From: Plasmodium malariae
Lineage: Eukaryota > Apicomplexa > Aconoidasida > Haemosporida > Plasmodiidae
Reading direction: 5' to 3'
Assembly: GCF_900090045.1 (NCBI RefSeq)
Contig: NC_041781.1
Location: forward strand, 1,026,001-1,090,000
DNA: 64,000 nt
The position numbers and the translations under genes are program-made. The notes under the pieces were generated by a model. The model did no database searches, was not told the origin of the DNA, and saw only the letters and a program-made list of their open reading frames with translations. Every line of letters begins with the position of its first letter. Position 1 is the first letter of the stretch. Shown piece after piece: positions 1-52,690 of the stretch.

Positions 1-224
1 TTTTTTCGTTTGTTTGTTAGTTTTTTTTTTTTTTTTTTAAGCCCCCCCCCCCTACAAATGATATCCCTTTTTTTTGTGGTTTTTGTTTATATAGGGGATG
101 TAGTTCTATTTTTCTTGAAGATTTTTTTTGGGAGAATATTTCTTTTTAGAAATATTTAAAAAAAAATAAAAAGGAAAGAAAAAATGAATGTGGAAATCCT
201 TGTTTTGCATGGGAAGGAATTCTC

Positions 225-236
225 ACCCTGAACCCT
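225..236 (+). other. Putative telomerase RNA template, ACCCTGAACCCT
   Basis: These 12 bases are complementary to AGGGTTCAGGGT, so they cover a full heptamer plus the 5-base alignment region needed for repeat translocation. Plasmodium telomeres consist of GGGTTTA/GGGTTCA repeats, and copying this template would give the TTCA variant. The flanks (TTCTC upstream, CGAAGTAACC downstream) do not continue the repeat, so this is a single template-like element and not an interstitial telomere array. Confidence 0.72.
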
Positions 237-1112
237 CGAAGTAACCGATTGTGTGCTCATTAGTAACTGAATAATTGCGATAATGAAAAATTTAGGGAAA
301 AGAAAACGATAGCTTATGGTTTGATTCCTTATTTTTTTCGTAGTGATTATTCACGAACATGAGGTCGTATATTGGATTAGGGCGGAAGTTAGCAACCAAC
401 AGTGCGCAATCATTTGAAGCTCATAGGCTTTCTTTGTTAAATTAAGAAAACAGAAAGATCCATATACCTCAATCGGTGTACTTAATGATGCGCTATTATA
501 TCTCTCGTGTCGACCAGGAGATAGACCTACTTTTTTCTTTTATTCAAATATAATTTCAAAATTATGAAGGTCGACGCATATATTTTGAGGTTTATATTTG
601 GTAAAAGAAAAAGTACACACACTCGAATAAAATATATATATTACATATTGTTTTATGAGTATATATTTGGTGGTGCGCACACCGAATGTATTCCCATTAA
701 TAAGCGTTTTATATTATTTGTTCGAAGTAAGAAGGAAAATTTTACAAGACAATTATATATACATATATATTTATCTTGTAAAATTTTCCTTTACTAATGG
801 TCGGAATCTATCGGCATGTTTTTCTTTCAAAGGGTTTATTTTTTTAAATATATTCTTTGAAGGAAAAAATGTTTTGTTTTCATGTTGCAGTTAACTCTGC
901 GTGAATACAATTACAGGTTGTATCATTCCAGGCATGAACACGGTAGACTAGAAAGGTCCAGATGGCAACTCTACATATTTGAGGTGTTATCGATATTCGC
1001 TGTACCTTTATAAATAAATTCTAAAAATAAATATTTTTTCTTAGAATAGATTGCACATTATTTAGAAAAAGGGGAAGAAGGGTTAAATTATTTATTAAAA
1101 AAAAAGCAAACT

Positions 1113-1419
1113 AAAATTTTAATTATAATCCTCATGGAATAAATAAAATTTTAATTATTATCCTGATGGAATAAATAAAATTTTAATTATTATCCTCATT
1201 GGAATAAATAAAATTTTAATTATTATCCTGATGGAATAAATAAAATTTTAATTATTATCCTCATTGGAATAAATAAAATTTTAATTATAATCCTTATGGA
1301 ATAAATAAAATTTTAATTATTATCCTCATTGGAATAAATAAAATTTTAATTATTATCCTCATTGGAATAAATAAAATTCTAATTATTATCCTCATTGGAA
1401 TAAATAAAATTTTAATTTG
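1113..1419 (+). repeat. About 9.5-copy minisatellite of ~32 bp inside the telomerase RNA region
   Basis: The unit is built from AATAAATAAAATTTTAATTA followed by TTATCCTCATTGG, with GATGG, CTTATGG and CATGG variants and small length differences. It lies between two complex blocks of the putative telomerase RNA, so if the RNA is transcribed through, the array is part of it. Copy number in such arrays usually varies between strains. Confidence 0.85.
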
Positions 1420-1476
1420 CTTTTACTTTAATAAAAAAATAATGCAATTTGGATTTGCCACAAAGAGTAGTAGCAG

Positions 1477-1524
1477 AGAAATTATTCCATACTTATTATG
1501 AAATATAACTATGGAATTATTTCT
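1477..1524 (+). other. Stem-loop in telomerase RNA region (14 of 15 bp, 18-nt loop)
   Basis: Left arm 1477-1491 (AGAAATTATTCCATA) pairs with right arm 1510-1524 (TATGGAATTATTTCT), with one T-T mismatch. The stem is followed by a pyrimidine-rich strand and a poly(T) run. It is the longest near-perfect inverted repeat I found in the non-coding block. Confidence 0.6.
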
Positions 1525-1615
1525 GTCTCTCTCGTCCTCTGTTTTTTTTTTTTTTTTTTTTTTTTTTTTTGTTGTGCAAAAAATTAATTTTTTATAGGGG
1601 GGGAGGGGTTGTAGT

Positions 1616-1666
1616 GGTGGTATTCCTTCATATATAATCTATTCTTTATGTGAAGCGATAACCACC
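1616..1666 (+). other. Stem-loop with GGTGGT/ACCACC base in telomerase RNA region
   Basis: GGTGGT (1616-1621) pairs with ACCACC (1661-1666). After a short internal loop, CTTCATA (1626-1632) pairs with TATGTGAAG (about 1648-1655; one G-U pair). A GC-rich closing stem is rare in this window and suggests a folded RNA domain. Confidence 0.5.
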
Positions 1667-1816
1667 TCTTTTTATTGAACAACTTATGAACATAATAATA
1701 ATATGTACATGATGCTGTTAAGTAGTTTTATATTGAAATACATTTCTATTACAGTGTAAAGATTTATTTGTAAAGGAATATATTAAAATAAGGAACTGGG
1801 AGATAATAAACTTTAT

Positions 1817-1855
<39 letters not shown>

Positions 1856-2483
1856 TTCACTTTTAAGAAGGCAGAACGCGTCTTTTAAGCATATGAAATA
1901 TATGCTAATCCAGAAGAAGATTATATATTTTTTTTTCTTTTTTTGCAGATGTGTTTATATGTATGTAATACATAATATATACAGTCAGTGTGTAAATAAT
2001 TTTTATTGTTGTTTTAGCCTATATGTAGAGCATTCCCCATTGATGATAGTAGTGTAACCAATTATTCTCAGAACCTTTTTGTGTCAATATATGTACGGAT
2101 TTACCTTAAATTTTTAATATATTAACTTGTTTAGTTTATCCTTTTTTTTTTTTTTTTTTTTATTTTGGCCTTTTACATATTTTGTAACATTTCTCATTTT
2201 ATTATTAATATATTTTTTTTCAAAACTGTAAATTTTTCCTTTTTTTTTAATTTTTTAGTAAAACTACAAAATGACATTAATGATATATTTTTCTTTATTA
2301 TTCCTAAAAAAAAAAAAAATGAAAAAGCATTTCTGCTTTTTTTTTTTTTTTTTTTTTTCTTTTTATATATTGTTGTACACCCTTTAATCTGTGAGGGGGA
2401 ACAGTATGCTGTTTTTAATAAATTTAAAGAGGAAAATATCACATGGTCTTAAAAACTTGTAAATAGATAGCTTTTTTAAAAAA

Positions 2484-2680
2484 AAAGAAAAGACAGAAGT
2501 ACGAAAGAAAAGATATTCTATTCTGTCCTTTTTGTTATAGCGCTATACTATAAAATAAATTATGACTGAGGAAACTTGCTCCCTCTTAACTGTTTTTCGT
2601 TGATCTTAAGAAATGACTAGGTACCACTTGTTATGACGTAAATAGTGAACATACCTAATAACAACATGTTAGTCTTTCTT
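2484..2680 (+). ncRNA. Candidate structured RNA: 3' part of telomerase RNA or separate small RNA
   Basis: A second complex, non-coding block lies just downstream of the main telomerase RNA region. It contains a 12-bp perfect palindrome TATAGCGCTATA, facing ACAGAA/TTCTGT arms around 2493-2528, and AGGTA/TACCT arms around 2620-2655. No open frame of gene quality covers it. It could be the 3' domain of the telomerase RNA, an independent small RNA, or 5' flanking DNA of the helicase gene; the sequence alone does not decide. Confidence 0.3.
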
Positions 2681-3290
2681 TCTTTAAAATGATGTACCAC
2701 AAATCAGTCAAATCAGGTAAGTATATAAATGGGAAAGAAAACGAAAGGGAATTTTTGCCTTTATAAAGCATTCTTTTTGTGTTAATGAAAAATTATGCAT
2801 ATCTTATAGAAGTACATAAATTAAACAGCTATAATGCACATATACATACATACATAGTTCACACATGTCCGCATATATACCCAGGTGTATGGTATGTGCC
2901 CCCTTCAAGAGTCAACATTTGCGCTTTTCTGTTTTATTTTTTTTAAAAACGGGGAAAAAGTAAATGATGAGAAATTGGTATGTGAATGGTACCTAAAATG
3001 TACGTAAAATAAAAAATTGTTATTTCTTTTTGTCCCCTAAAATACGATCGATTAATTCCGGAATAGGTTTAAATGATGAAGTTCAATTAAATGATCCTTT
3101 TTATATATGTTTATAGCCCGTAAAATATGGAATATTTTTTATTTTTTTTTTTTAATTGTTTTTACTTCTTTATTCAGAGGTATAAAATTTCAAATATAAT
3201 CATTCTCATTAACATATGACCAGGAAGCTTCCTTGAACAATTTTTTCTTTACATCCTTTATTTATAAAGCAGTTGGGTTGAAACAAAATA

Positions 3291-3330
<40 letters not shown>

Positions 3331-3657
3331 TTCACATAATTTGACCTTATTTGATACAATTTTACTAATTTGATATAATATGTTGCAGGTTGAAATAATT
3401 TGAATTAATTTCATATAATTTGAATTAATTTAATATAATTCGAAATAATTTGAATTAATTTGAATTAATTTGAATTAATTTAATATAACTTGAATTAATT
3501 TAATATAATTCGAAATAATTTGATATAAGTCTATATAAATTGCCAAAAATTGCTACAATTTGACACAATTTGTAAATACCCCTCTTGACAGTACTCATTT
3601 TAAGAAACCCGTAATGCCCCATATAGTGACCTGCCAAAATAGCCAAATTTTACAAGC
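2681..3657. other. Spacer and upstream region of RecQ helicase gene
   Basis: No gene is visible. It holds AT-rich DNA, a (TA)n run near 3310-3332 and the degenerate repeat described separately. The last 100 bases should be transcribed leader of the helicase mRNA. Confidence 0.6.
3361..3545 (+). repeat. Degenerate ~10-20-bp repeat (AATTTGAATTAATTTAATAT-like)
   Basis: Short units of AATTTGAATT, AATTTAATAT and AATTCGAAAT alternate for about 185 bases upstream of the helicase start. They are imperfect, consistent with old slippage. Confidence 0.65.
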
Positions 3658-3684
3658 ATGAATATCGAAGAGGACAAAGAGTAA
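3658..3684 (+). promoter_or_regulatory. Upstream ORF of 8 codons, 5 nt before the RecQ start
   Basis: ATG at 3658 opens the peptide MNIEEDKE and stops at TAA 3682-3684. Only five bases (AAACC) separate it from the main ATG at 3690. A scanning ribosome would meet this ATG first, so the helicase would depend on leaky scanning or reinitiation. It matters only if the transcript begins upstream of 3658. Confidence 0.4.
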
Positions 3685-3689
3685 AAACC

Positions 3690-5642
3690 ATGGGGGAAAT
3701 AAACCTGATAAAAGAAGGCACATTTGATAATAAGGAGGATGAGATGTCAAATAGGTTATTAAATGAGTACAAAAACAAATACGCTAATATAGACATCCTT
3801 AAAGCAACAACCATTTTGAAAGAATATTTCTCCTTTAATGAGTTTAAAACAAAACAAATAGAATGTTTAAATGCAATTAAGAATTTTGAGCATGTTTTAA
3901 ATATAACACCTACAGGGGGAGGGAAATCATTAATATATCAAGTTATTCCTTTACTTATTGGAGGTATCAGTATAGTGATTAGTCCATTAATTTCATTAAT
4001 TCAAGATCAAATACTATCTTTAAAAAAACGAAATATTATGGCTGAAACTATTAACAGTTCATTGAAAAAAAAAGAAAACGAAAATATATTAACTTTGTTA
4101 AAAAGTTATAATGATTGTAATATAAAAGTGTTATTCATTACCCCCGAAACAGCAACAAGTGAATATTTTATTATGTTAATACAAGAGCTTTATATGAATC
4201 AAAAAATTTCACTTATTTCAATAGATGAAGTTCATTGTATTAGTACATGGGGATGTGAGTTTAGAAAAAGCTATAGGAATTTAAACAGAGTTTTGAAAAC
4301 TTGCCCTTTTGTTAGGATATATAGTTGTACAGCTACGGCTACTAAGTCTGTTGAAAATGATATTATACTTAATTTAAATTTGAATCAAGATAAGAATAAT
4401 AGTCTTCGAATTGTTAGAACCCCATTTAATAGACCTAATTTAAAATACGTCATAGTATATAGTGATTTATTAAAAATAGAAAAAAAGAAAAGTGTGTTAG
4501 ATATTATTAATGAAAAAAAAAATATGAACAAAATTGGTATTGTATACTGTTTTAAAAGAAGTACATGTGATGAAATATCCAAATATTTAAGAGAAAAAGG
4601 TTTACAAGCTTTGAGTTACCATGCTGGATTGACAAACAATGCTAGGAAAAGAATACAGGAAAAATGGGTTAAAGGTAATGCAAAAATTTTAGTTGCAACC
4701 ATAGCATTTGGTATGGGTATAGATAGAAAAGATGTATCATATATTATACATTTTAACCTACCCAAGTCTATAGAAAATTATTACCAAGAGTCAGGTAGGT
4801 CAGGTAGAAATGGAAATATTTCTTTTTGTTATTTGTATTATTCCAAAGAAGATGTAGAGAAGTTATCATATATCATAAAATGTAGCTACGCCAATTTGGA
4901 TATGCATGATATCGATGTAGAAAAAAAATTCGAAAAAGAAATGTACAAATTGGAATGCGTTCATAATATGTGCATTAACGAAAAATGCATCAGGTCCCAA
5001 ATTCTTAGCTACTTTGGGGAGACACGCCATAAAAATAGCGACAGAAACGGGGGTGATGGCGGTGGTGGTAACGGCTATAGGATCAGCGGCAATGGTAGTG
5101 GAAATAACTTCAGTAATGATATAGCTCGCAACTATTTAGGGAACGCACACAACGAACTGGGAAATACGCAGAAGGATGAAACCTACTGCTGTTCATACTG
5201 CTTCGACATAAGAGGATCAAAAGACAAAATTCAACAAGTGTTAAAGTTGTATGAGCGAAAAAATTTGAATGCGCAATTTGCACAGGAGGAGAAAAGTTAT
5301 AATAGCAAAAAAATTAATCCAAATGTGAACCCAAAGAAACATATACTAAGTGATGATTCATATTCAGACAAGGAACAGGAATTAAATGAATATAAATTAA
5401 CCAACAAAAAAATTAAAGGTTTTGTTCCCTTTCAAAGTGCATCATCCATAATCTCGAAGGAAGTAAGAGATAAGGGAATTATTGAAGTAATGAAAGAACT
5501 GGAAAGAAGAGAGGAACTAATGGAAAATAAACTTGAACAGGAATCAAAAGATAAAAGTAAAATGTATAACACACCGTTACATTGCGTTAATTTTAGAAGG
5601 AAGCCCACATTTTCATCTTTCAAAGTTCCCAGGAAAATATAA
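3690..5642 (+). CDS. RecQ-family ATP-dependent DNA helicase (BLM/RecQ1 type)
   Basis: A single-exon gene of 650 residues encoding a 3'-5' DNA helicase of superfamily 2, acting in the nucleus in recombination, fork restart and genome stability. Walker A TPTGGGKS is at 73-80, the DEVH box at 179-182, motif III SCTATATKS near 212-220, motif V VATIAFGMGID near 335-345, and motif VI QESGRSGRNG at 366-375. The RecQ-Ct zinc module follows: Cys428 and Cys433 with RSQILSYFGE, then a Gly/Asn-rich insertion (about 445-495) before the distal CxxC (Cys501, Cys504). No HRDC domain is visible; the tail is charged and low in complexity. The start is supported by a good context (ACCATGG) and a full N-terminal helicase lobe. 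By synteny I take it as the counterpart of the P. falciparum chromosome 9 RecQ called BLM; the other parasite RecQ (WRN) is elsewhere. Confidence 0.95.
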   Translation: MGEINLIKEGTFDNKEDEMSNRLLNEYKNKYANIDILKATTILKEYFSFNEFKTKQIECLNAIKNFEHVLNITPTGGGKSLIYQVIPLLIGGISIVISPLISLIQDQILSLKKRNIMAETINSSLKKKENENILTLLKSYNDCNIKVLFITPETATSEYFIMLIQELYMNQKISLISIDEVHCISTWGCEFRKSYRNLNRVLKTCPFVRIYSCTATATKSVENDIILNLNLNQDKNNSLRIVRTPFNRPNLKYVIVYSDLLKIEKKKSVLDIINEKKNMNKIGIVYCFKRSTCDEISKYLREKGLQALSYHAGLTNNARKRIQEKWVKGNAKILVATIAFGMGIDRKDVSYIIHFNLPKSIENYYQESGRSGRNGNISFCYLYYSKEDVEKLSYIIKCSYANLDMHDIDVEKKFEKEMYKLECVHNMCINEKCIRSQILSYFGETRHKNSDRNGGDGGGGNGYRISGNGSGNNFSNDIARNYLGNAHNELGNTQKDETYCCSYCFDIRGSKDKIQQVLKLYERKNLNAQFAQEEKSYNSKKINPNVNPKKHILSDDSYSDKEQELNEYKLTNKKIKGFVPFQSASSIISKEVRDKGIIEVMKELERREELMENKLEQESKDKSKMYNTPLHCVNFRRKPTFSSFKVPRKI

Positions 5643-12469: not shown

Positions 12470-14176
12470 TTAAAAATTTTTTACGTATTCCCGCTGCATT
12501 TTATAATCATTCAAGGGTAAGTCTAAACAACCAGGAGCAACACTATCAACATCTATGATAGCTTTTTCTAAAATTTCAGAACACTGCATAGTTGATGCGT
12601 AATTTCTAATATATACATCTAATTTGTTTCTAAATATTCTATGACCTGGCATCCCTTTAAGTATTCCTAAAATAGGTTTCAATAATTCAAACGCACTTGG
12701 TAAATTATAAAAAATGGAATTCTGTTCTAAATACACTTTATATGCTTCTAATACTGATCTCCTACTATATGCACTACTTGGAGCCTTTTCATTATAAACC
12801 AACGTATCTGCTTGTGATAGAATAGTGATGTTTTCCATACATGCTCTACCTATCATAACGCCATATAACGGATTTATATGATAATTTTCAACTAACTCGT
12901 AATTATCATTATTATTATCATAACAATTATTATTATTAGTAGAAGTAGTACTATCAGTAGTAGTGGTAGTGGTCGTGGTAGTGGGCGTGGTAGTTGTTGT
13001 GGAAAATGTACTTGTAGTAGTATCATTATTATTATTTTTATTGTTACCATTATTAGCACCATTTAATTTGTTACTCTGTGGGATGTAGCCATTTAATAAA
13101 GCTACTGCTTCTTGTATAGACTTTACACCTCCATTTAATGTAAATTTTATATTAGGATAAAATTTACACAAATCATATACTTTCTTATATTCTAATGGGG
13201 GTACACTTCTATTTTGTTTTGGGTCTAAACCTTTTAACCATGCTTTTCTTGCATGGACAATAAAATGATTGCATCCTGCTGATGATACGGTTTCAATAAA
13301 TGATTTTAAAAAAGAAAAAGAATCATATTCATCAACACCTGTTCTTATTTTAACTGATACAGGAATTTGTACTTTTTTTTTTATTTCATATACAATATTT
13401 CTAACATGTTCAGGTTTTTTCATTAAATATGCACCAAAAGCTCCTCTATTAGCTACTTTTGTACTTGGACATCCAACATTTAAATTTATTTCATCATATC
13501 CTGCTTGTTCTACTAAAATAGCTGCTTCAGATAACGATATTGCATCACATCCTCCTAATTGACAAACTATTGGATGCTCATTTTTGTTAAAACCTAAATA
13601 TTCGTCTAATTTATTTAAGTTATACAATAACGTATTGTCAACTATCATTTCTGTCCATAGTTGTGCTTTTTTCGTTATAATTCTTACCAATGCTCGAAAA
13701 TGTCTATTCGTTACATTAATCATAGGAGCTACTTGTATAAAAGGTATTGCCTCACTTCTACCTTTTCGATAGGCATCATTTAAACATGTACTTATGTTTT
13801 CAAATTTAAATACATTCTCACATGGGCGTAACACTTCATCGACATTATTTTCTATTAACATGGTCATATTGCTTTCTTTGCTTTCTCTCCTTTCTTTGTT
13901 TCCTCTTTTTTCTTTTTTTCTTTTTTTCCCATTTATTCTTATTGTATTCTTGTAATTCACACTATTGTTATTAAAACCATATAATAAATCCCTTTTACCC
14001 TTTGTATAAAACCATAATTTTTTTTTTTTGTTTTTATGAAATTTTTCTTTATCTATGAAAAAATAATATACTCTTACGAGAGTATATCTTCTTTCGTTCA
14101 ATTTTGTTTTACCATGATTTTTGAAATAGATAAAGTATATGCTTATGATCAAACTTCTTAGAAGTTTTATTTGCAT
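12470..14176 (-). CDS. tRNA-dihydrouridine synthase, DusA-type
   Basis: A single exon of 568 residues. It is an FMN enzyme that reduces uridine to dihydrouridine in tRNA D-loops. FMN-binding VAPMINVTNRHFR lies at about 149-161, the catalytic loop NVGCPS at about 233-238 (Cys236), Lys276 in VSVKIRTG, HAR at 308-310, LNGG at 347-350 and the phosphate-binding GVMIGRA near 439-445. The NVGCPS, HARKAWLKGL and GLDPKQNR segments are typical of the DusA branch. An Asn/Thr homopolymer insertion (about 372-428) interrupts the barrel between LNGG and GRA. The first ~105 residues are extra to the family and begin with a hydrophobic stretch followed by Lys/Asn/Arg-rich sequence, which fits a bipartite apicoplast leader (inference). 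A shorter start at Met104 or Met106 would remove it. Confidence 0.93.
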   Translation of the reverse strand: MQIKLLRSLIISIYFIYFKNHGKTKLNERRYTLVRVYYFFIDKEKFHKNKKKKLWFYTKGKRDLLYGFNNNSVNYKNTIRINGKKRKKEKRGNKERRESKESNMTMLIENNVDEVLRPCENVFKFENISTCLNDAYRKGRSEAIPFIQVAPMINVTNRHFRALVRIITKKAQLWTEMIVDNTLLYNLNKLDEYLGFNKNEHPIVCQLGGCDAISLSEAAILVEQAGYDEINLNVGCPSTKVANRGAFGAYLMKKPEHVRNIVYEIKKKVQIPVSVKIRTGVDEYDSFSFLKSFIETVSSAGCNHFIVHARKAWLKGLDPKQNRSVPPLEYKKVYDLCKFYPNIKFTLNGGVKSIQEAVALLNGYIPQSNKLNGANNGNNKNNNNDTTTSTFSTTTTTPTTTTTTTTTDSTTSTNNNNCYDNNNDNYELVENYHINPLYGVMIGRACMENITILSQADTLVYNEKAPSSAYSRRSVLEAYKVYLEQNSIFYNLPSAFELLKPILGILKGMPGHRIFRNKLDVYIRNYASTMQCSEILEKAIIDVDSVAPGCLDLPLNDYKMQREYVKNF

Positions 14177-18422: not shown

Positions 18423-21400
18423 ATGGGATTCCTCAAAATTGGAACGCCATTAAGCTGGGAAGAAGTGCAACATGTAAAATCTCTTATACGATTGTATGGT
18501 ATACTGCAGTTTGTTCATACATACAAGTGTAATAAGGATCGAGAAGATGAAAATATAATGTTTGGGGATGAAATAGAATATATCATTATAAGGAATGATG
18601 AAACATTGAAAGAATCATCAGCTCTTTTATGTGCTACAGATTTAATTGATGAAATGATGAATTTAGAAAGTGTTACTGATTGTCAATATGGATCTCATTG
18701 GACACCTGAATACTCATCCTTTACGATTGAAGGGACACCATCCGTACCTTTTAAATTTGATATTAATTCTTCATCATTTGTTGAGGACTGTATGAGAATA
18801 AGGAGAAGTAAATTAAATAACGTTCTAAGTGCAATCAGCGGAGTTCGAGCAGTTACATTACCATGTTTCCCTAACAGCCTTTTGAATAATAGTCTTCTTA
18901 TGGCTAAAAGAATAAACCAGGAAAATAGTAAAAAGAAAAATGAAAGGATTAATAAAAATGATTTGGTAGAACCACCTGCTATAGAAAACATTCATTTAAA
19001 AAAAATAGAAAAAAAAAATAGTGAAAATGAAAAATGCGCAAACATGCATAGTGAATATAAAATTACTTTTAATGATTCTAATCAAATTGATATGGATGAA
19101 AATAAATCAACACATTTTGTAAATTCAGATATAACTTGTCAAAAAAATGATGATATATTAATGCAAGATATATATGCGGATGAAGGAGAATGTATACATG
19201 TAGAGGAACTTAAGAAAGAAGAAAAAAGAGATGAAAAAGAAGGAAGAAACGAAGAAATGAAAGAACATGAACAGACTATGTTCATAAATTCGTTAAAAGA
19301 AGATTCTATATTTGAATGTGAATTATTCAAACCAGAAAATATAAACAATTATAGTAATAGTTGTTTAATTACAGATATGGTGATAAGTCCACATGCTAGA
19401 TATATCACGTTAACACAAAATATAAGAAAAAGAAGAGGAACGAAAATTATTTCTTTTAATCCGATTTATATGGATATTTATACAGAACAAATGGATAACT
19501 GGAAATTAGCTTTAGACAAAAGTGACAACAGACTTTTTAAAAAAATAAAAAAAAAGTATGTTCTAGAGGATCACTTGATTTGGAATAAATCCATGTCCAA
19601 CAGGAAAAAGAGGGAGGGAAATGTTCATGCAAGTGGTGAAACCACGCTTGACCACTTAAGTGCATCCATAAACGAAGAAACTACCTCAAAAAAAGAATTA
19701 AAAATAGATGAAAAAAAATATAATGGTAGTATTGTATATGGCGGAATGGATACGAAGCAAAAGGATATAGATAGCTATTTAAATTATAAAGAAAAAGATG
19801 AAAAGGAAAATTTAATGGATATTGCTATGAAAAATAGCTTGTTTAGCAATATAGACGATGAAGAAGATTATATATATGTATATGATAGAAAATTTATTGA
19901 AGAATATTCAGAAATATGCAAAAATCCAATAAAAAATTATGTATATTTAGATGCCATGTTTTTTGGAATGAGCATGTGTTGCCAACAATTAACTATGTCC
20001 TTTCCAACAATTGATGATGCAAAATATGTATATGATCAGCTAGCTGTAATAGCACCCTTATTTTTAGCCATTACTGCATGTACTCCATATTTAGGCGGGT
20101 ATCTCACTGAGACAGATACAAGATGGAGAGTAATTTCAAATAGTGTGGATTGTAGAACAGAAGAAGAGTTAGCTTATATATCCAAACCTAGATATTCAGG
20201 AATATCTTTATATATATCAGATGAATTACCTTTAAAAAGGAATTATTATTTTTATAATGATATAGATGTAGTTCTAGATAAAAATGTATACGACAAATTA
20301 AGAAAAGAAAATGTGGATGATTATTTATCAAGACATATTTCTTCCTTATTTGTAAGGGATCCAATGGTTGTATTTCAGGGATCTTACAGTGAGAAGGACA
20401 TTATATCCATTGAAAAGAGATTGGATTATCATATGTCTATGCCCCCCAACCCCCAAGAAAACAAAAAAAAATTTGATAAAATTAAAAAAGGGAAGAAAAG
20501 AACAACTTATACAAGAATGCAAAAGGAAAAAGAGGATGTGGTGGTAGATAAAAATAAGAATAAAAAAAGTAATATGAACAGTATATATCTAAGTGATAGT
20601 TTCAACTTTTTAGAAGATTATGAAGAAAAAGTACTTTCATCCCATCAACATTTTGAAAATTTTCAAAGTACCAACTGGAATAGTGTCCGATTTAAACCCC
20701 CACCTATACTTGATAATCATTTTAATGGACCAAGCTCTATTGGATGGAGAGTAGAATTTAGAACACCAGATATTCAAATAACAGATTTTGAAAATGCTTC
20801 TGTTGTTACTTTAATTATGGTTTTGTCTAAATTTATTTTAAAAAAAAGACTTAATTTATATATTCCTATGTCTTTGTTAGAAGAAAATTTGTTCAGATCA
20901 GCACACAGAGATGCTATAATAAAAGAAAAATTTTATTTTCGCACAAATTTAAATTATGATACAACAGATAATGAAATAGAGGAAAAAACTATATACGATA
21001 TATTTTTCAATGAAAAAAATGGAATATTCTTTTTATGTTCCAAATATGTTGAAGAACAATATAATGAAGGCGCATTAACACAGACAGCAAAAAATAAAAT
21101 AGATGAATATATTGAATTTATAAAATTAAGAAGTTGTGGGAAAATATGTACAGGTGCAGCTTATTTAAGAAATTTTATTATGAACCATCCTTCTTATGAA
21201 AAAAATTCATATATTAATAGTAAAATAAATTATGATATATGTAAATTAATAGCAGATATAGGAAAAGGTTTAATAATTCCACAAGAATTATTAGGTGTTT
21301 TTGTTGATCCATATAAAGAAAGAATAAAAAGTGACTTAAGACAAATTAATGAAAGTCAGTATCTTAAATCATTAGCCTACAAATTTATATCAGGAGAGGA

Positions 21401-21542
21401 TTATACACAGTACCTTCTTCTTAGTGAGGTTATTAAGGATGACCAAGACTATTACACTTGTACTAAAAGAACAAATTATGAAGAATCTACGGATAATCAT
21501 ACACTTGAGTTTGGAAAGAAACTGTACCTATTAAGCGCATAG
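18423..21542 (+). CDS. gammaGCS: Gamma-glutamylcysteine synthetase (glutamate-cysteine ligase)
   Basis: Single exon, 1039 residues. It joins glutamate to cysteine with ATP, the rate-limiting step of glutathione synthesis in the cytosol. The N-terminus (GTPLSWEE, about 8-15) and the acidic metal/glutamate site GDEIEYII (about 48-55) match eukaryotic heavy-subunit GCL. PEYSSFTIEGTPSVPF follows near 95-110, MFFGMSMCCQQ near 515-525, ETDTRWRVISNSVD near 562-575, and WRVEFRTPDIQ near 773-783. Charged insertions (about 160-315, 395-470 and 680-725) make it far longer than mammalian GCLC (637 residues), as is usual in Plasmodium. The start is fixed by the conserved N-terminus directly at the ATG. 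Confidence 0.96.
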   Translation: MGFLKIGTPLSWEEVQHVKSLIRLYGILQFVHTYKCNKDREDENIMFGDEIEYIIIRNDETLKESSALLCATDLIDEMMNLESVTDCQYGSHWTPEYSSFTIEGTPSVPFKFDINSSSFVEDCMRIRRSKLNNVLSAISGVRAVTLPCFPNSLLNNSLLMAKRINQENSKKKNERINKNDLVEPPAIENIHLKKIEKKNSENEKCANMHSEYKITFNDSNQIDMDENKSTHFVNSDITCQKNDDILMQDIYADEGECIHVEELKKEEKRDEKEGRNEEMKEHEQTMFINSLKEDSIFECELFKPENINNYSNSCLITDMVISPHARYITLTQNIRKRRGTKIISFNPIYMDIYTEQMDNWKLALDKSDNRLFKKIKKKYVLEDHLIWNKSMSNRKKREGNVHASGETTLDHLSASINEETTSKKELKIDEKKYNGSIVYGGMDTKQKDIDSYLNYKEKDEKENLMDIAMKNSLFSNIDDEEDYIYVYDRKFIEEYSEICKNPIKNYVYLDAMFFGMSMCCQQLTMSFPTIDDAKYVYDQLAVIAPLFLAITACTPYLGGYLTETDTRWRVISNSVDCRTEEELAYISKPRYSGISLYISDELPLKRNYYFYNDIDVVLDKNVYDKLRKENVDDYLSRHISSLFVRDPMVVFQGSYSEKDIISIEKRLDYHMSMPPNPQENKKKFDKIKKGKKRTTYTRMQKEKEDVVVDKNKNKKSNMNSIYLSDSFNFLEDYEEKVLSSHQHFENFQSTNWNSVRFKPPPILDNHFNGPSSIGWRVEFRTPDIQITDFENASVVTLIMVLSKFILKKRLNLYIPMSLLEENLFRSAHRDAIIKEKFYFRTNLNYDTTDNEIEEKTIYDIFFNEKNGIFFLCSKYVEEQYNEGALTQTAKNKIDEYIEFIKLRSCGKICTGAAYLRNFIMNHPSYEKNSYINSKINYDICKLIADIGKGLIIPQELLGVFVDPYKERIKSDLRQINESQYLKSLAYKFISGEDYTQYLLLSEVIKDDQDYYTCTKRTNYEESTDNHTLEFGKKLYLLSA

Positions 21543-21974: not shown

Positions 21975-22416
21975 TTTTTAAAATTATAAAATTAGTTATT
22001 TTTTCAATAAAAAATGAAAAGACATAAATAGTTCTTTCTTAAATCATAATTAAATATTTATATGCATAAAATACGCATAAATATAAATATATAAATATAT
22101 ATATATTTATATATATATATATATGTGGTGCATATGTATATGTGTGTGTAAAAAGGGGAAAAATGAGAACAGTTTGAAAAGAAAAAAAAAAAATTGTTTT
22201 TTTTTTTTTTTTTTTTTTGTATAAAGCTGGATTAAAATAAGAAGAGTCAAAATGGACTACATAGAATTGAACTCATCTGGTATATCCATTTTTACTTTTT
22301 GTTTTATACTTTCTTTAATGCCTTATTTTTTTATTTTTCCTTCTTCCTTCCTCCTGCTTTTGTTTTCTTTTTTTTCATTTTTCCTTGTTGGTGTGTGTGA
22401 CACCCAGACACATTTC
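21543..22416. other. Convergent spacer between gamma-GCS and NAP genes
   Basis: Holds the 3' flanks of both genes, poly(T) runs (21942-21971 and 22196-22218), and (TA)n near 22080-22125. No gene seen. Confidence 0.6.
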
Positions 22417-24247: not shown

Positions 24248-24500
24248 TAGATAGATATATAGATATATAGATATAGATACATAAACATATATATCCATAT
24301 ATAAGTATGCGATTAATTATAACATTTATATGGATAAATAACAAATATATACATCTATAAGCATATATGTATATGAATATATGTACATGTATAAGTATAT
24401 ATGTATATATTTATATATATGTATGTACATATGTATGTGCTTACGTATGCTTGGGCTCTGTTGTGTTTTCAACGGAATTTTCTGAGCGATCTCTCTTCAT
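22417..24500 (-). CDS. NAPS: SET/NAP-family nucleosome assembly protein (NapS-like)
   Basis: Three exons on the minus strand: 24445-24500, 23597-23649 and 22417-23117. Phases 2 and 1 close exactly; 810 bases give 269 residues. From memory this equals the length of P. falciparum NapS. The protein binds histones H3/H4 or H2A/H2B and helps deposit them on DNA. Exon 1 is [18 protein letters not shown] plus part of a Thr codon. An N-terminal dimerisation helix follows (about residues 22-65), then the NAP earmuff fold with [13 protein letters not shown] and EWFTTEEL, then a Glu/Asp-only tail (about 205-269) typical of SET-type chaperones. The tail DNA is a GAT/GAA triplet run. Without the two small upstream exons the protein would lack its start; the open frame's own first Met lies in intron 2. 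Confidence 0.9.
24190..24275 (+). repeat. (TA)n / TAGA microsatellite in NAP intron 1
   Basis: Long TA dinucleotide array followed by TAGATAGA units, located inside the 795-base first intron of the NAP gene. Confidence 0.85.
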
Positions 24501-24553
24501 TTTTAGTTACTATATTCTTATGCTTTCATGTATATATAAATATATATATATAA

Positions 24554-24599
<46 letters not shown>

Positions 24600-27500
24600 T
24601 TATAAATAGTAAAATATGTTATTAAATTAAGGGAAAAGCTTTTAAATTTTATAATCACAAGGAGGGCTTTAAATTATATTGTTTAATAAAGAGAAATAGA
24701 ATCCTATTTTATTTTTTTTTATTTTTTATTTTTTTCGATTTTTTTCTTTATTGAACTTTGTTTTATGTTCGATAAATAAAGGAGTCGATTCCACTGCTTT
24801 AAAAAAAAAAAGGGAATTAAAAAATAAAAATTAATTTTAAAATTATAAAAATTATTTGCAGTACATGTATATGTACGTACGTTTGTACGTATGTATGTAT
24901 GTATGTAGGTATGTACGTATGTATATATAGATATATGCGTATATAGATATATGCATATGTATTTTTATAGGTATATACCTATGTATTTATATAGATATAT
25001 ACATATGTATTTATATAGGTATACAACTATGTATAAATGTATATAGGTATATACGTATTTATGTATGTTTGTAGGTATATGAGTACATATGAACATATCC
25101 ATGTGCATATAATATGCATAAGTAAATATGGTGAATGATCAGGTTCGCCATAATATTAAAAGAGCCATGTGAAAATACTGACATCTTATGTATAGCTTCC
25201 ACAAAACAAAAAAGTAGGTAGTAGCAATGATAGCAATAAAAAAAAAAAAAAATAAATAATAATAATATTAAATGGTATATTTTTACGCAATTATAATATA
25301 AAAAATACTCAGTTGTAATACAGATTTATAAAACTTTTTAACTTGGAATTATACAACTAATATTTTTATTTTCGTTTATTCATTCGAGTAATTATATACA
25401 TTCCTTTTTTAAAAACTTTGCATATATATTTAAATTACATGTATTTATATTACATATAAGTACATATGGTACATGTAATATGAACAAATCATATATATAA
25501 AATATATACAAGCAATATATTTATATATGTACGTGTACTTATAATATATTGTTTTATATTTCATTGCGTGCGACGGCGCTCATTTTTTATAGCTTCTTTC
25601 CTTTGAATTGAGAAATAAAAAATGACTATATTTTTAAACATAATCTACATATTACATATATGTACATATACGTTCATATACATGTGTAAGCACATACATA
25701 AATATATACATATTTATAAGTACAGAAGTTCCATTATTGTGTACATATACATATATATATATATCATAATATCATTTTCATGTTTGTACTTACATATATT
25801 TTATTTATATTGTACATAATTTCTTTAAATTCTCATGATACATAATAATAAGATAATAACAGGAAATATTAACTTTTTTCAGTATTTAATCTGAGGACCT
25901 ATTTATTTCCTACAAGTTTTTGCATAACAATTTTAGAAGGACTAGAGATGAAACGCAAATATTTATTGCTGCCTTAAATTTTGTAGTTCTATATAATTTC
26001 AAACTTAAACTCATACTCTTCTGGGCTTCCTTATTATTATTACTATTATTTTTACATATTCATATGTATATGTATATGTATATACATATAGTGGTATGTG
26101 TAATGATGGGTGTTCATGCGATAAGATAGTATTGTGTAATATTTCATACGAAATATAAAATAACATAAATATAGGAGCACAAACGTATTAGCTGTTTAAT
26201 AATAAAATGTAAAAATCATCCATATAATATTTTCATGCCATTTAATTCTAGTTATAATAGGTATGTACTTTCCACTTGAATATAATAATTTATGTAATAA
26301 ATGTATATGAGTAGCAAGGAAAGGAGTATATATAACGTTATCATATATTAAATATGGAGTTAATTATAATATTCTACTTAAATGTATGTGGAAAATATTA
26401 TGTTTTCAAATAATTATATATCTACACTCTTATGAAAAAAATATTTGCAAAAGAGTAACATGGTTAATTTTTTTTTTAATTTTTTTTTTTTTATTTTTAC
26501 CTTTTTGTTTTACCATATGGCAGTTCTTATGTACGTATTGTACATATATACATATAAACATATATGTTTATAATTAAGCTTATACGTATGCTTATATATG
26601 TATATATACATTTATGCATATGTTTACTCCATCAACTTGCTTAAATTATTTGTAAGAAAGCAATTTATTTTTTTCTTCTCTCCTTTTAACACTCTATTAT
26701 ATTTATACACGTACATAAAATTAGAAAATTTTTAGGTATTACACAAATTGCTATATGATAATCTTCGTTAACGCCAATAAATATTTTTGCAAATCTTATA
26801 TCAATTCTATGCTGTCCACATATGTACATATGAGAGCACACATTTGATACCTAATGTTATCTCTTTTTTTAATATTTGTTATATTCGTTATCACAATAAA
26901 ATAATAAAATGCATTTTGTAGAAAATAGGAAAATTATATCATTCCTATGTGTATTATTTTAATATTATAAAAAAAAAAAAAAAAAATTTCTTTCCTTTTT
27001 ATTTTACTATTTTTTTTTTTTTTTTAATATTATTATTTTACTCACTTATTCAACCTTTTTTTGAAAAGAAATTCCTTATAGCTAACTTTTCATAGGGGAA
27101 AACGAAAAAAAAAAAAAAAATATATTCCTATAATATTTTTCCATCCAATGGCGTCTTATTATATATAAAAGGAAAAAGCTTTAAATGAAGAAAAAATAAT
27201 AATAAAAAAAAAAATCAATGCGGATGTATTCGCCTTTTCTTTTTCTTAATGAAACTAAAGCGTGCTATTATATATATATATATAATACGTTATTTTTAAT
27301 TTTCTCACATAATGGAAATTATATTTTATCTTTAAGTACTAATTATTACAAATATACAGCTGAATAAATGTACAGAGAAGCTCTTGTAATTCTGCTTATA
27401 TAGCACATTTTTGTTACCTGTATTACTCATACATATACATATTTATATCATACCAATATATTATGTGATACATAATTATAAACACAATAAAGCCATTCCT

Positions 27501-39524: not shown

Positions 39525-41368
39525 TAAGTAGTTTACCATCATGGCTAATAATATGAAAGCGAAGAAAAAAAGAAAAAAAAAGAAAAAAATTTATTTTCAA
39601 ACACACTCCGATGTCTTCATATCATATATGTTCATAAGCAGATATATATCTTACCTATTTGATATTTCATATGTGTAAGTTCAGAAAATCTTTAATCGAA
39701 CAGACGAGCATAAAAAGACGTTTTTGTTCATATACTATTTTTAACGGCACATAGACCTGTACACTTACCTACTTACATACATACATACATGCATAAATAC
39801 TTATATGCATACGTGAATAACCGCTTATGCGCATATCCATGTTATGTAATATTTTTTTCATCCCAGCTGCTATTTTTTTTTTTTATTAATTTTTTCCTTA
39901 TTTGTACAAGGCATATCCTGTGCTTGGCCCATTCTTAATTTTTATAATTTTGAATTCTTTTTGAATATAATTTTTTACGTTTTTTTGTATTATTTTTTTT
40001 GTATTATTTTTTTTGTATTATTTTGTTAGTATTATTTTGTTAGTATTATTTTGTTAGTATTATTTTGTTAATAATATTTTGTTAATAATATTTTGTTAAT
40101 AATATTTTGTTAATAATATTTTGTTAATAATATTTTGTTAATAATATTTTTTGTATTGTTTTTATTTATTTATTTATTTATTTTTTGTTTTTTTGCAATT
40201 TACTGATTTGTGAAAACTATTAAATTAAACTTCAAGACAAAAATTGCTATTTTGGATTGAATTCTAGCAAAAACAAAAAAAAAAAAAAAAAAAACGAAAT
40301 GGGAGTAAAAATATATTAGAAATACGAGTAAAAATAGGAATGGAATAGAAATATAAATAAAATTAGGAATCAACGTAGTAATACACGTAATTCTTGTAGT
40401 AATGCGCGTACTAATACATTAGTAGTGCCCGTAGTAATAGGCTTAGAAATGGAAGCAAGAAGGGGGAATTATAAATCGGTGCACCAAAATGTACACTTTG
40501 ATTAACAGCTAAGAAAGAGTAAAAATAAGGTAGGTGTGCAACATCCCCATAATTCTAGTGTGGAGTATGTTTTTATACCATGTACCGTAATAAAATATAT
40601 ATATATATATGTATATTTGTATACCTGAGTTTGAAAATTATACTAAATGACGTAGCAATTAATAACTTTTAAGAATAAAAAGAATAAATTTCGTAATTTT
40701 TAAATATTATGACCTTTGATAAAAATGTGATACGATATTTTTTGTAGTGCATATGGGGAAGTATAAAAATATAATCAAATTAGAAAGTGATAGAATTCAT
40801 ATATGTGTATATATATATGTTCCTTTGTTCATGTTGCCCCTTTTTTTTTTTTTTTTTTTTTTTCTCTTAATGAAATTTTATTTCTTGTTACAACTTAGAG
40901 AGGCTTATATAGGAAATGTGCTAATTACTATTTGAGCTTGTTTGTGCATATTCTGCTTTATTTCTTTGTTTCTTTAATTCTTTAATTCTTAACTTGTTTC
41001 CTTTTATTTTATTTTTTTTTTTTTTGTCACTAAATTCACAGCAATTAATAAAATTGGAACATCTGATTTAGTTAAACGAATCCTCATTCTGGACAAACCT
41101 TTACATAACGCATAGCGCATAAAACATAACTCAGTTGATACACTGTTTATTTAATATGTTTTTCACCTAGTGCCATGCCCGCTTGATGTTCAACTTGCTT
41201 GATGTGCTATTTAGTGTTCTACTCACTTAATGAGTAATTTGCCACATGCGCTATAAAAACGTGTATATGCAAAAAATTGGTAATCATGTAAATTGAAAAA
41301 TTTGGGGCTAATATTAATAATTTCACGTTAGTATATACATAAATTAGGAATTTATTTTGTGAAACTTC

Positions 41369-44899: not shown

Positions 44900-46303
44900 A
44901 TGATGTACCTAACTAAAGTTATTTTCAACGCGTGTCTGGCTATCCTTAACTGTAGCCTGTGTCTGTCTTCAACAAGCTTGGCAAGAAAAATGTTGATCGA
45001 TGATATGAAGATATGCCCGCATGGGTACAGAGGATGTCCAAAAGAGAAATGGTACTTTGCAACATTTTATTTTATGATATATATTAGTGGGTTTTTGGGA
45101 TGTTTTATATCTTTATATTTTAAGAACGCAAACAGAAGGAAATTAATGTTAGCTATACACTATTTATTTATTATTGGAAGTACATTAACATTTTATACGT
45201 CACCTCATGTTATTATAACATTATTTTCTCAAGCCTTTTTTGGATTAGCTATCGGATGCTCAGTTGTTACTGTATGTTTTTATGTACTTGAATATTCTCC
45301 AAAAGAAGATCAAAATTATTATGGATATATTATTCAAGTATTTTTTTCCATTGGATTATTAATTAGTTATATATTTGGAGCTTGTTATGAAAATATACGA
45401 TTTTCAAATCCAAAGACTAATCGTATAGTACTTTTATTATTATATAAGACACATATGTGTTTACCTATCATATTCAGTATAATAGCATTAATATTATTTC
45501 ATTTTGTATTTACTATGGATACACCATTACATCTATATGAATCGAAAAAATATGATAAATTTGAAACCTTAAAAACAACAATTAACTCAAAAAATTTTGA
45601 TGAAAAGAAAGAATACCACACTAATAAAAAAACAGAAGAAGTAAGTTTACTAGGTAATGATATTGCCATATATGATTTTTTTAAAAATAAAGATTTAAGA
45701 AAATTATCTTTAACATCATGTCTTCTATGCCATTTATACTCATTTAGTGGCTCCTTTTTATTTTTTAACAAGATGTTCTTATTTTATAAAATTTTCTCCT
45801 CTACAATGGCAAACACATTTATTTCTACTGGATTTATATGCCTATATGCTATATGCTCTATTATTGTAGTCACTGTACTATCACATCGTTTTCAAAAGAA
45901 GGATTTATTAATAACTGGACTTCTACTACAAACTATAGCATCTGTTTGTATAGTTGGTTCATACTTTTTAAAATTTACGAACGTTTTCAATCAACTTGTA
46001 ATAACAGCAGCTATAACAATATATTTTACTGGTTTATCCTTAGGCTTTGGACATATTTTATGGACTCATATTTATGAATTATTTCCCAAGGAGAGTAAAA
46101 GTGTAGCCGCTTTCTGTTCATATAGCTCTCTTTTTATTGCTGCTCTGATTATGTCCATATTGTTAGAATTCCTTAGCATGAAATATTATTGCTACTTATT
46201 TATTACATTTATCGTATCGCTACTTTTGTCTATTTTGTTTTTTAACTCATTTTATGAAGAAGATTCCATGGTCATCAAGAGGCACGATTCAGTGCAGGCC
46301 TGA
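44900..46303 (+). CDS. Major facilitator superfamily transporter (putative sugar transporter)
   Basis: Single exon, 467 residues. About twelve hydrophobic segments in two sets of six, separated by a charged cytosolic loop (about 215-265). The loop between segments 2 and 3 has NRRKLML (78-84), the remnant of the sugar-porter G-R-R/K signature. PKESKSVAAF near 395-405 recalls the motif after segment 10. Residues for hexose binding that are clear in the main parasite hexose transporter are not evident, so the substrate is open. By synteny it matches the P. falciparum chromosome 9 gene annotated as a sugar transporter. The start is the first ATG, and the second codon is also Met. Confidence 0.9.
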   Translation: MMYLTKVIFNACLAILNCSLCLSSTSLARKMLIDDMKICPHGYRGCPKEKWYFATFYFMIYISGFLGCFISLYFKNANRRKLMLAIHYLFIIGSTLTFYTSPHVIITLFSQAFFGLAIGCSVVTVCFYVLEYSPKEDQNYYGYIIQVFFSIGLLISYIFGACYENIRFSNPKTNRIVLLLLYKTHMCLPIIFSIIALILFHFVFTMDTPLHLYESKKYDKFETLKTTINSKNFDEKKEYHTNKKTEEVSLLGNDIAIYDFFKNKDLRKLSLTSCLLCHLYSFSGSFLFFNKMFLFYKIFSSTMANTFISTGFICLYAICSIIVVTVLSHRFQKKDLLITGLLLQTIASVCIVGSYFLKFTNVFNQLVITAAITIYFTGLSLGFGHILWTHIYELFPKESKSVAAFCSYSSLFIAALIMSILLEFLSMKYYCYLFITFIVSLLLSILFFNSFYEEDSMVIKRHDSVQA

Positions 46304-47700
46304 AGCAAGCTCTCCGTGTTGCGAATAGGTGGGTCCACATTAGTGTATACATGTGTATATACATGTGTATATATATGTGTGCATGTACATGTGCATGTAC
46401 ATGTACATGCACATATGAATATATACTCACCTGCCTGCTCCTGCGATGGCAAATACTAATCGAAAAAACAAATGACGACGCCTTGAATTCCTAAGCCACA
46501 ACATCAAACAGATTTTTCCACCTCACGAACTGAGAAAGGATTTTATCAAACAAAATACAGCGAAATTTCAGTATTACCATTAAAAAATATATGGGTACCA
46601 AAAAGGGGAAATGAAATGAAAGCACAAATCTGAAAATAGACGAAGTATACAAACAAAAATACTCACGCACACCATGCATGAGTGCACACATCATTACGTG
46701 CGTTAATACATATCTAAGTGCATATATAAATGCGTATATATGTTTACATTCTTAAACACAGTATGAGAACACGTCTCTGAGTTGTATGTTTTTACGAGTT
46801 CCCTCCTTTACTTTTCCTTTTTCTCCCACATTTCATTCACCCTTTGTATCACTTGACTTTTTTTAAGTCTATTAATACCATTTTATGTTTCATTTCTGCT
46901 GTAATAACTTTCATAAAAAACAAACATTTTTTTTTAGTTTTTTGTTTTTAGTCAATTTTTAATTATCCATATTTTTACTCGCCAAGAGCTCAGTTCATAC
47001 TTTTTCCCTTTTACACAGTGTGCTGTGATTATCATTAATATTATTTTCACTTCATTTTACTCAGTTTTGCTAAATTTTACTCTATTTTATTTTATGTTTT
47101 TATCCTTTTTATGTATGCTCTTACGATTTAATCTTTTTCAATTCCACTTCTTTGCTTTTGTTAATTTTAAATTTTATCTAGCCAAAAAAAAAAAAAAAAA
47201 TAAATAAATAAAATTGAAGTTAAAAAAAAAAAAAAAGTGATAACATTCGGCATTAATGAGGCAGAATATGTTTTGGGCATAAATAAATATACATATAATA
47301 CTATTGCATGAATATATATATATACATATGTACATAAATGCATAAGTACATGATGCCAACATGTTTTAACACGAGTTGGGTGTTACCTTTCCGAGTAAGA
47401 TACATTTGTAGATCCCTCAGTTGAGATGATAACAAGTTATATATTAAGGTTCCGAAAATATTCCAAATTATAGTTTCTTTGAATGTATGATATTTGAATT
47501 GTTTTTATTAATTTTGTCGGTTTAATATTCTCTAATTTAAATTATTTATATCTTGCCTCCTTTTTTTTTTCTTTATCTTTTTTTTATAAAATCCTTGACA
47601 ATACTTTCTTCTGTTAATGCTCTCAGAAATGGCAAAATTTTCTCTAGTAAAAAGATATGCGTAGAATGAGATTGTTTATTTTCTTTGGCCGAAATATACG
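46304..47700. other. Spacer between MFS and OST48 genes
   Basis: AT-rich, with TGTATATACATGTG-like short repeats (46345-46420). The stretch 47370-47470 is more complex than the rest but has no feature I can name. The 3' flank of MFS and the promoter of OST48 lie here. Confidence 0.55.
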
Positions 47701-51363: not shown

Positions 51364-51744
51364 TTTGCTATTATTTTTGACTTAATTTGCGATTATTTTG
51401 TGCTTAATTTGTAGTTAACCTTCACTCAATTTGCATTTATTATTCTCTGAATTTGTGGTTATTTCGCATTTAACTTTGAGTAATTTTTCAGTTAATTTTT
51501 TTTTTTTTTTTCTGACTTGTTCATGTATTTTAGGTATCAATTACCGCTATTCGTATCTACAATGTGTGTGTGCGTGGACATGTGTATAGGTTTAATATGA
51601 GGAGAGGTTGAATATATGGATAGGTTGAATATGTGGATAGGTTGAATATGTGGATTGGTTGAATATGTGGATTGGTTGAATATGTGGATAGGTTGAATAT
51701 GTGGATAGGTGAATATGTACGTATGTGCATATATGTAATGCGTG

Positions 51745-51788
<44 letters not shown>

Positions 51789-52690
51789 TATGTACATACA
51801 TGCGCTTATATTACACATGTGTGCACATTCGGATATCATCTGTATTTGGCTTGAATTGGGAAATGTATATAATTTTTAAATATTTTTTATTCGTTATTAC
51901 AACTTTACAATAGTGCTATTCTTTTCCCTTCATTTCATTTTCAATTTCAATTATCTTCTTTTTCTTTTTTGTTATTAATTTTTTAAATATTTACGAATTA
52001 ATAAAATTGTTTCCTTTGTTTTTTTTTTTTATGTTCACTAAACATAAAATTTATAAATTAAAAAAAAGGAAAACGAAATAATAAATGCTTACTTAAATAG
52101 TAAAATTTAAGTGGCATAAAACGAAATAATAAATGCATATTTAAATGGTAAAATTTAAGAGGCTTACGTTATTAACAAAAAAAAAAAAAAAAAAAAAATA
52201 TAATAATAAATAAAAATATTTGCCTTCTTCCGTTTTTTTCATAGTATTATAAAAAATTTGGAAAATATACATAAAACGAAAATGAAGAAAAAAGAAAAGA
52301 AAAAATAAAAATGAAATATTTAAAAATAGGTATTCACATATAATAATCATTTTATAAGGATAGCCGAACAAAAAATATAATAGGTAACTCGCATTATATA
52401 TACGAATAAAAAATTCAAATAAATACATATAATGTAAACATGTGTGTATGTATATACATATATATATATACACATATGTATATATTTTGTTTGCTATATT
52501 AACTACACGTGCCAACTACGTCGTGTTAGTTATCCATCTAAAGAAGAATCATCCAAATGATTTGCTAATGAAGTCCATCATCTTGTCAAATAAATCAAAT
52601 AATAGCTACATACATAGGTAGAGAAAGAAATATAATATATGGTCCCTTCCTGTGCTTTCTATTTTTTGGCCCCTATTTTTGCAACTTATA
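51364..52690. other. Convergent spacer between PLPBP and TLDc genes
   Basis: TAATTTGC-like repeats directly after the PLPBP stop (51364-51500), the 17-bp array at 51605-51712, a (TA)n run (51747-51785) and A-rich DNA. No gene recognised. Confidence 0.6.
51605..51712 (+). repeat. 17-bp minisatellite (GGTTGAATATGTGGATA), 6-7 copies
   Basis: Units differ only by TGGAT[A/T]GG and one ATATGG variant. G-rich relative to surroundings. Confidence 0.9.

Follow-up and report, generated by a model that had tools for sequence, protein, structure and literature searches.

A highly probable telomerase RNA gene of about 2 kb beside a RecQ helicase gene in Plasmodium malariae

The window, that is, the whole stretch of 64,000 nucleotides analysed here, spans 1026001-1090000 of contig 7 of the Plasmodium malariae genome, and the genome searched comprised 33,612,066 bases in 62 contigs. 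The features on which this report relies are the following.

150-2100, + strand: proposed telomerase RNA gene, approximate body with both ends estimated (non-coding; fold z)
192-223, + strand: candidate template-boundary hairpin, nine pairs and one mismatch (minimum-energy fold)
225-236, + strand: template ACCCTGAACCCT (exact match; complementary to genomic GGGTTCA repeats)
499-577, + strand: candidate pseudoknot, stems 499-505/517-523 and 507-515/569-577 (stem energies)
532-612, + strand: long hairpin (inverted self-match 79%; present in the fold of 60-1000)
732-791, + strand: long hairpin (inverted self-match 90%; present in the fold of 60-1000)
1112-1417, + strand: 33-nt tandem array of 9.4 copies, a repeat within the presumed RNA
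3690-5642, + strand: RecQ (Bloom-type) helicase gene, a syntenic marker outside the RNA (PDB and domain matches)
12470-14176: dihydrouridine synthase (domain search)
18423-21542: glutamate-cysteine ligase (domain search)

The copy of ACCCTGAACCCT at 225-236 is flanked by TTCTC before and CGAAG after and is complementary to 12 nt, or 1.7 copies, of the heptamer GGGTTCA; the match that the initial annotation had proposed is confirmed as exact. In the telomere tracts of this genome GGGTTCA is interspersed with GGGTTTA. The template is more than one repeat long and complementary to the genome's own telomere repeat. The same annotation had described the surroundings as 2 kb of complex, non-coding sequence. 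The second adjective holds, since the longest ATG-started frame in 150-2150 is 79 aa, but the first holds only in part, given the 33-nt array and runs of 29 T at 1542 and 34 T at 1820. The word telomerase does not appear in the main text of the P. malariae genome paper (PMC5326575).

The next gene found downstream is the RecQ gene, whose closest PDB match is the Bloom helicase (E 3.8e-81) and which carries the domains DEAD, Helicase_C and RecQ_Zn_bind; scanning viral contigs for RecQ gave no relative. In P. falciparum, PF3D7_0918600 is presumably the RecQ gene, adjoining PF3D7_0918500, and PF3D7_0918900 is the gene that we take to encode glutamate-cysteine ligase. On the other side, an upstream frame, taken as the final exon of the gene before, stops 2,121 nt short of the template. 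Pfam returned no family for the contig 7 upstream frames at about 1,017,584-1,019,540 and 1,021,349-1,023,479, so the upstream neighbour is no help with synteny.

How much weight a 12-nt match can bear depends on where it lies. Under a first-order Markov model the exact 12-mer is expected 0.00004-0.0001 times in the 3,689-nt spacer at 1-3689 and 0.4-1.1 times in the whole genome of 33.6 Mb, and for telomere-type 12-mers in any register the expectation in the spacer is 0.005-0.011. The pattern BACCCTRAACCCTY, with a non-telomeric base on each side, has one match genome-wide, at the template; read backwards as a control it also has one match genome-wide. A 16-nt pattern around the template has matches in 8 viral contigs. 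The 12-mer is striking by its location and is weak proof when taken alone; place and structure carry the case.

Structure is considered here as folding beyond shuffled sequence. Among long segments, 60-1000 has a z of -8.4 and 1420-2100 a z of -4.8, and 2200-3140 has a z of -1.0. With 200-nt fold windows, z is below -2 from about 400 to 1050 and then, with interruptions, from 1101 to 2050; the signal fades at about 2.05-2.1 kb and is gone at 1901-2200. Fold windows at 51-350, which cover the template, are near their shuffles (z -0.4 to -0.5), and folding at 901-1250 is not unusual. Further folded peaks stand beside the gene at 2251-2500 and at 3301-3650, the latter over a 10-nt repeat. Beyond position 4000, z falls below -3 in 8.5% of 200 fold windows on the plus strand and in 6.5% of 200 on the minus strand, and other spacers of the window also hold strongly folded stretches. 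Values below -5 on at least one strand (200-nt fold windows) are seen at 22001-22200, 24401-24900, 40001-40200, 46301-46500, 51701-51900 and 52301-52500. The minus strand of 60-1000 folds as well as the plus strand (z -8.6 versus -8.4), and therefore the strand is assigned by the template only. When 60-1000 is folded alone, the template bases are paired with probabilities of 0.18-0.86. In composition, the G+C content of 200-999 is 0.324; among 282 overlapping stretches of 800 nt taken outside marked ORFs, with a median of 0.231, one has a higher value and one the same. Rfam 15 returned no family at gathering score for the whole window, and over 1-3700 down to E 10 it gave 17 matches, all below gathering, the best with an E of 0.45.

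Within the folded region we looked for the parts expected of such an RNA. The hairpin at 192-223 stops a single base short of the template on its 5' side and is a possible template boundary element, a weak assignment given that 7% of letter shuffles and 3.2% of 40-nt stretches in 1-3600 match it. The candidate pseudoknot at 499-577 is likewise weak: its summed stem energy is reached by none of 500 shuffles, but it ranks fifth of 93 native segments, and judged by its weaker stem it is equalled by 9% of shuffles; its first loop would be 1 nt. The best pseudoknot candidate within 237-560 is at chance level (48% of 100 shuffles). The 33-nt array is framed by inverted arms at 1088-1126 and 1400-1438 and supplies part of the folding signal at 1101-1500.

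Competing templates were then sought across the genome with seven patterns, each ending in a mismatch, with the aim of covering every heptamer match of at least 11 nt in any register. Six patterns were listed whole, and one 11-nt pattern is represented by 100 of its 122 places among the matches listed. Terminal telomere tracts and one place at the end of contig 23 were excluded by eye. This left 93 internal loci, coding and non-coding mixed and the template locus included, which were scored by folding the next 800 nt downstream and comparing the result with 10 dinucleotide shuffles per locus; one of them (L124) is cut by a contig end and mis-centred, so that 92 of the 93 are sound. The template locus ranks first of the 93 scored, at -64.4 kcal/mol beyond its shuffles (z -12.6), and the runners-up reach -39.0, -37.7 and -37.4 kcal/mol (z -4.9, -6.8 and -9.7). 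Seven loci have a longer repeat match of 13-26 nt (L041, L043-L046, L071 and L116), with fold excesses of -14.2 to +10.9. The stretch 150-2150 is single copy: the four further genome matches trace to hairpins within it and to two stretches of low complexity on contig 10.

These results bear directly on the possibility that the real telomerase RNA is encoded at another place, for instance as a short RNA with a template below 11 nt, and that the 12-mer here arose by chance within a spacer or UTR. The genome-wide expectation of 0.4-1.1 chance copies leaves room for such a reading, as does the reach of the screen, which extends to templates of at least 11 nt and, for the one 11-nt pattern, to the places listed. 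However, chance copies in this particular spacer are expected at most 0.0001 times, and in downstream folding the other 92 scored sites all fall far short of the template locus. According to PMC4183507, moreover, the P. falciparum telomerase RNA is numbered as a gene of chromosome 9 and agrees in length. We regard this possibility as very unlikely.

A different objection accepts the place and disputes the size: Pol III could make an RNA of about 190 nt that ends at the seven T of 332-338, with the downstream fold unrelated to it. Ciliates are relatives of apicomplexans. Their telomerase RNAs are about 150-200 nt long (section 3.2, PMC5855555), and a short RNA at this locus would resemble them. 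However, the strong folding lies downstream of that run and fold windows at 51-350 are near shuffles, T runs are common in the AT-rich DNA here, and the P. falciparum telomerase RNA is 2148 nt (PMC4183507), all of which makes a short transcript extremely unlikely. That the 12-mer is an interstitial telomere remnant is also extremely unlikely: contig 13 does hold 18 nt at 2930265 within degenerate repeats, and contigs 19, 38 and 41 carry 22-26 nt internally, but no degenerate repeat surrounds the 12 nt, the site lies at position 1,026,225 of the 2,080,591 bases of contig 7, and the fold excesses of the four remnants run from -9.6 to +10.9, compared with -64.4 at the template locus. The contig 13 site (L026, about 2,930,230-2,930,280) is itself a degenerate interstitial telomere repeat; its exact A-type match is 18 nt long, and the end of the contig is about 93 kb away.

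We are therefore highly confident that about 150-2100 on the plus strand is the telomerase RNA gene of P. malariae, the predicted orthologue of PF3D7_0918500, because the template, the RecQ neighbour, the absence of an ORF, the folded extent of about 2 kb, the presence of a TERT RNA-binding domain and the first-rank folding agree. The TERT domain (PF12009) is found on contig 14, in an open frame of 2367 aa. The proposal of a giant telomerase RNA made in the initial annotation is thus supported by the template, the neighbour, the non-coding sequence, the fold and the first rank among 93 loci.

The proposed gene can be compared with telomerase RNAs described in other organisms. Chakrabarti et al. 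reportedly described the P. falciparum telomerase RNA in 2007. In PMC4183507 this RNA is PF3D7_0918500, and a review gives it a size of about 2.2 kb and calls it the largest reported (section 3.2, PMC5855555). The P. malariae locus is alike in being non-coding, about 2 kb long and equipped with a GGGTTYA template. Both genes would also adjoin RecQ, if we are right about the number of that gene in P. falciparum. The species are different, and the two RNAs are likened here by description rather than by sequence alignment; the 33-nt array at 1112-1417 may be specific to P. malariae. With ciliate telomerase RNAs the locus shares a template for a G-rich repeat followed by a possible pseudoknot, but it differs in length, about 2 kb against about 150-200 nt, and in its long internal T runs, which oppose Pol III.

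For the proposed RNA we infer transcription, TERT binding, a template register, a boundary helix and wobble pairing, which would fit together as follows. An RNA of about 2 kb would be transcribed by Pol II, because Pol III would be expected to terminate at the runs of 7 T (332), 29 T (1542) and 34 T (1820). It would assemble with TERT and present ACCCUGAACCCU in the active site, with the template divided between 232-236, which would align the chromosome end, and 225-231, which would be copied. The chromosome end AGGGT would pair with nucleotides 232-236, and copying from nucleotide 231 down to 225 would add TTYAGGG and a T, after which the end would shift back and the cycle repeat. The hairpin just 5' of the template may halt copying. 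The variable letter Y would be set by G230, which would give C by normal pairing and T in about half of the repeats, probably through an rG-dT wobble.

This last step arises from the contrast between the template, which has a single G at its variable position and so encodes C, and the telomeres, which carry both letters. Genome-wide, telomere-type 12-mers of the G type number 310, counting the template locus, and those of the A type 325, with interstitial copies possible in both counts. In 17 telomere tracts (L012, L022-L025, L132-L142 and L144) GGGTTTA occurs 385 times and GGGTTCA 362 times. The two are not randomly arranged: of 572 pairs of neighbouring canonical repeats, 347 (60.7%) carry different letters, against 50.6% after permutation, a value that none of 5000 permutations reaches, with assembly error in repeats possible in these counts. 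At lag 2, 209 of 438 pairs differ (47.7%), which matches the prediction of a first-order chain. Switching exceeds half of the pairs in 12 of the 17 tracts, equals half in two and is below half in three; a first look at five tracts had given 100 of 164 differing pairs (p 0.008). Six tract pairs share runs of 14-18 repeats, and therefore the repeat pairs are not all independent; when repeated 42-nt contexts are removed, 227 of 393 pairs differ (Fisher p 0.002). Among units that read GG rather than GGG, 52 of 58 have T as their variable letter, versus 362 of 698 GGG units, a difference that may reflect biology or assembly error.

For T at the variable position, rG-dT wobble is the simplest explanation, because no strongly folded A-type rival was found among the sites scored. 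A second, short template could also supply the T-type repeats, but this explanation is less simple than wobble. As candidates for a second telomerase RNA with an A-type template, the scored sites were rejected since none approaches the template locus, and so was the 18-nt A-type site on contig 13, which lies inside a degenerate repeat and has a z of 0.1. We therefore suggest, tentatively and with less than even confidence, that a single telomerase RNA with one G is read as C or T about evenly, and that the choice has a memory of one repeat in which switching is favoured, as in a first-order chain. In Paramecium, telomerase RNA apparently yields two repeat types from one template. The P. malariae locus would be alike in having a single template and two repeat types, and here the variable letter would be T or C opposite a template G, in a ratio of about 1:1.

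In summary, this analysis assigns the telomerase RNA of P. malariae, a species that is hard to study, to a locus that very probably corresponds to a gene known from other malaria parasites. Among telomerase RNAs, it extends the largest known class by a member that does not match an Rfam 15 model. What most deserves following up is how a template with one letter gives telomeres with two, a question that is directly testable, as is why neighbouring repeats tend to alternate.
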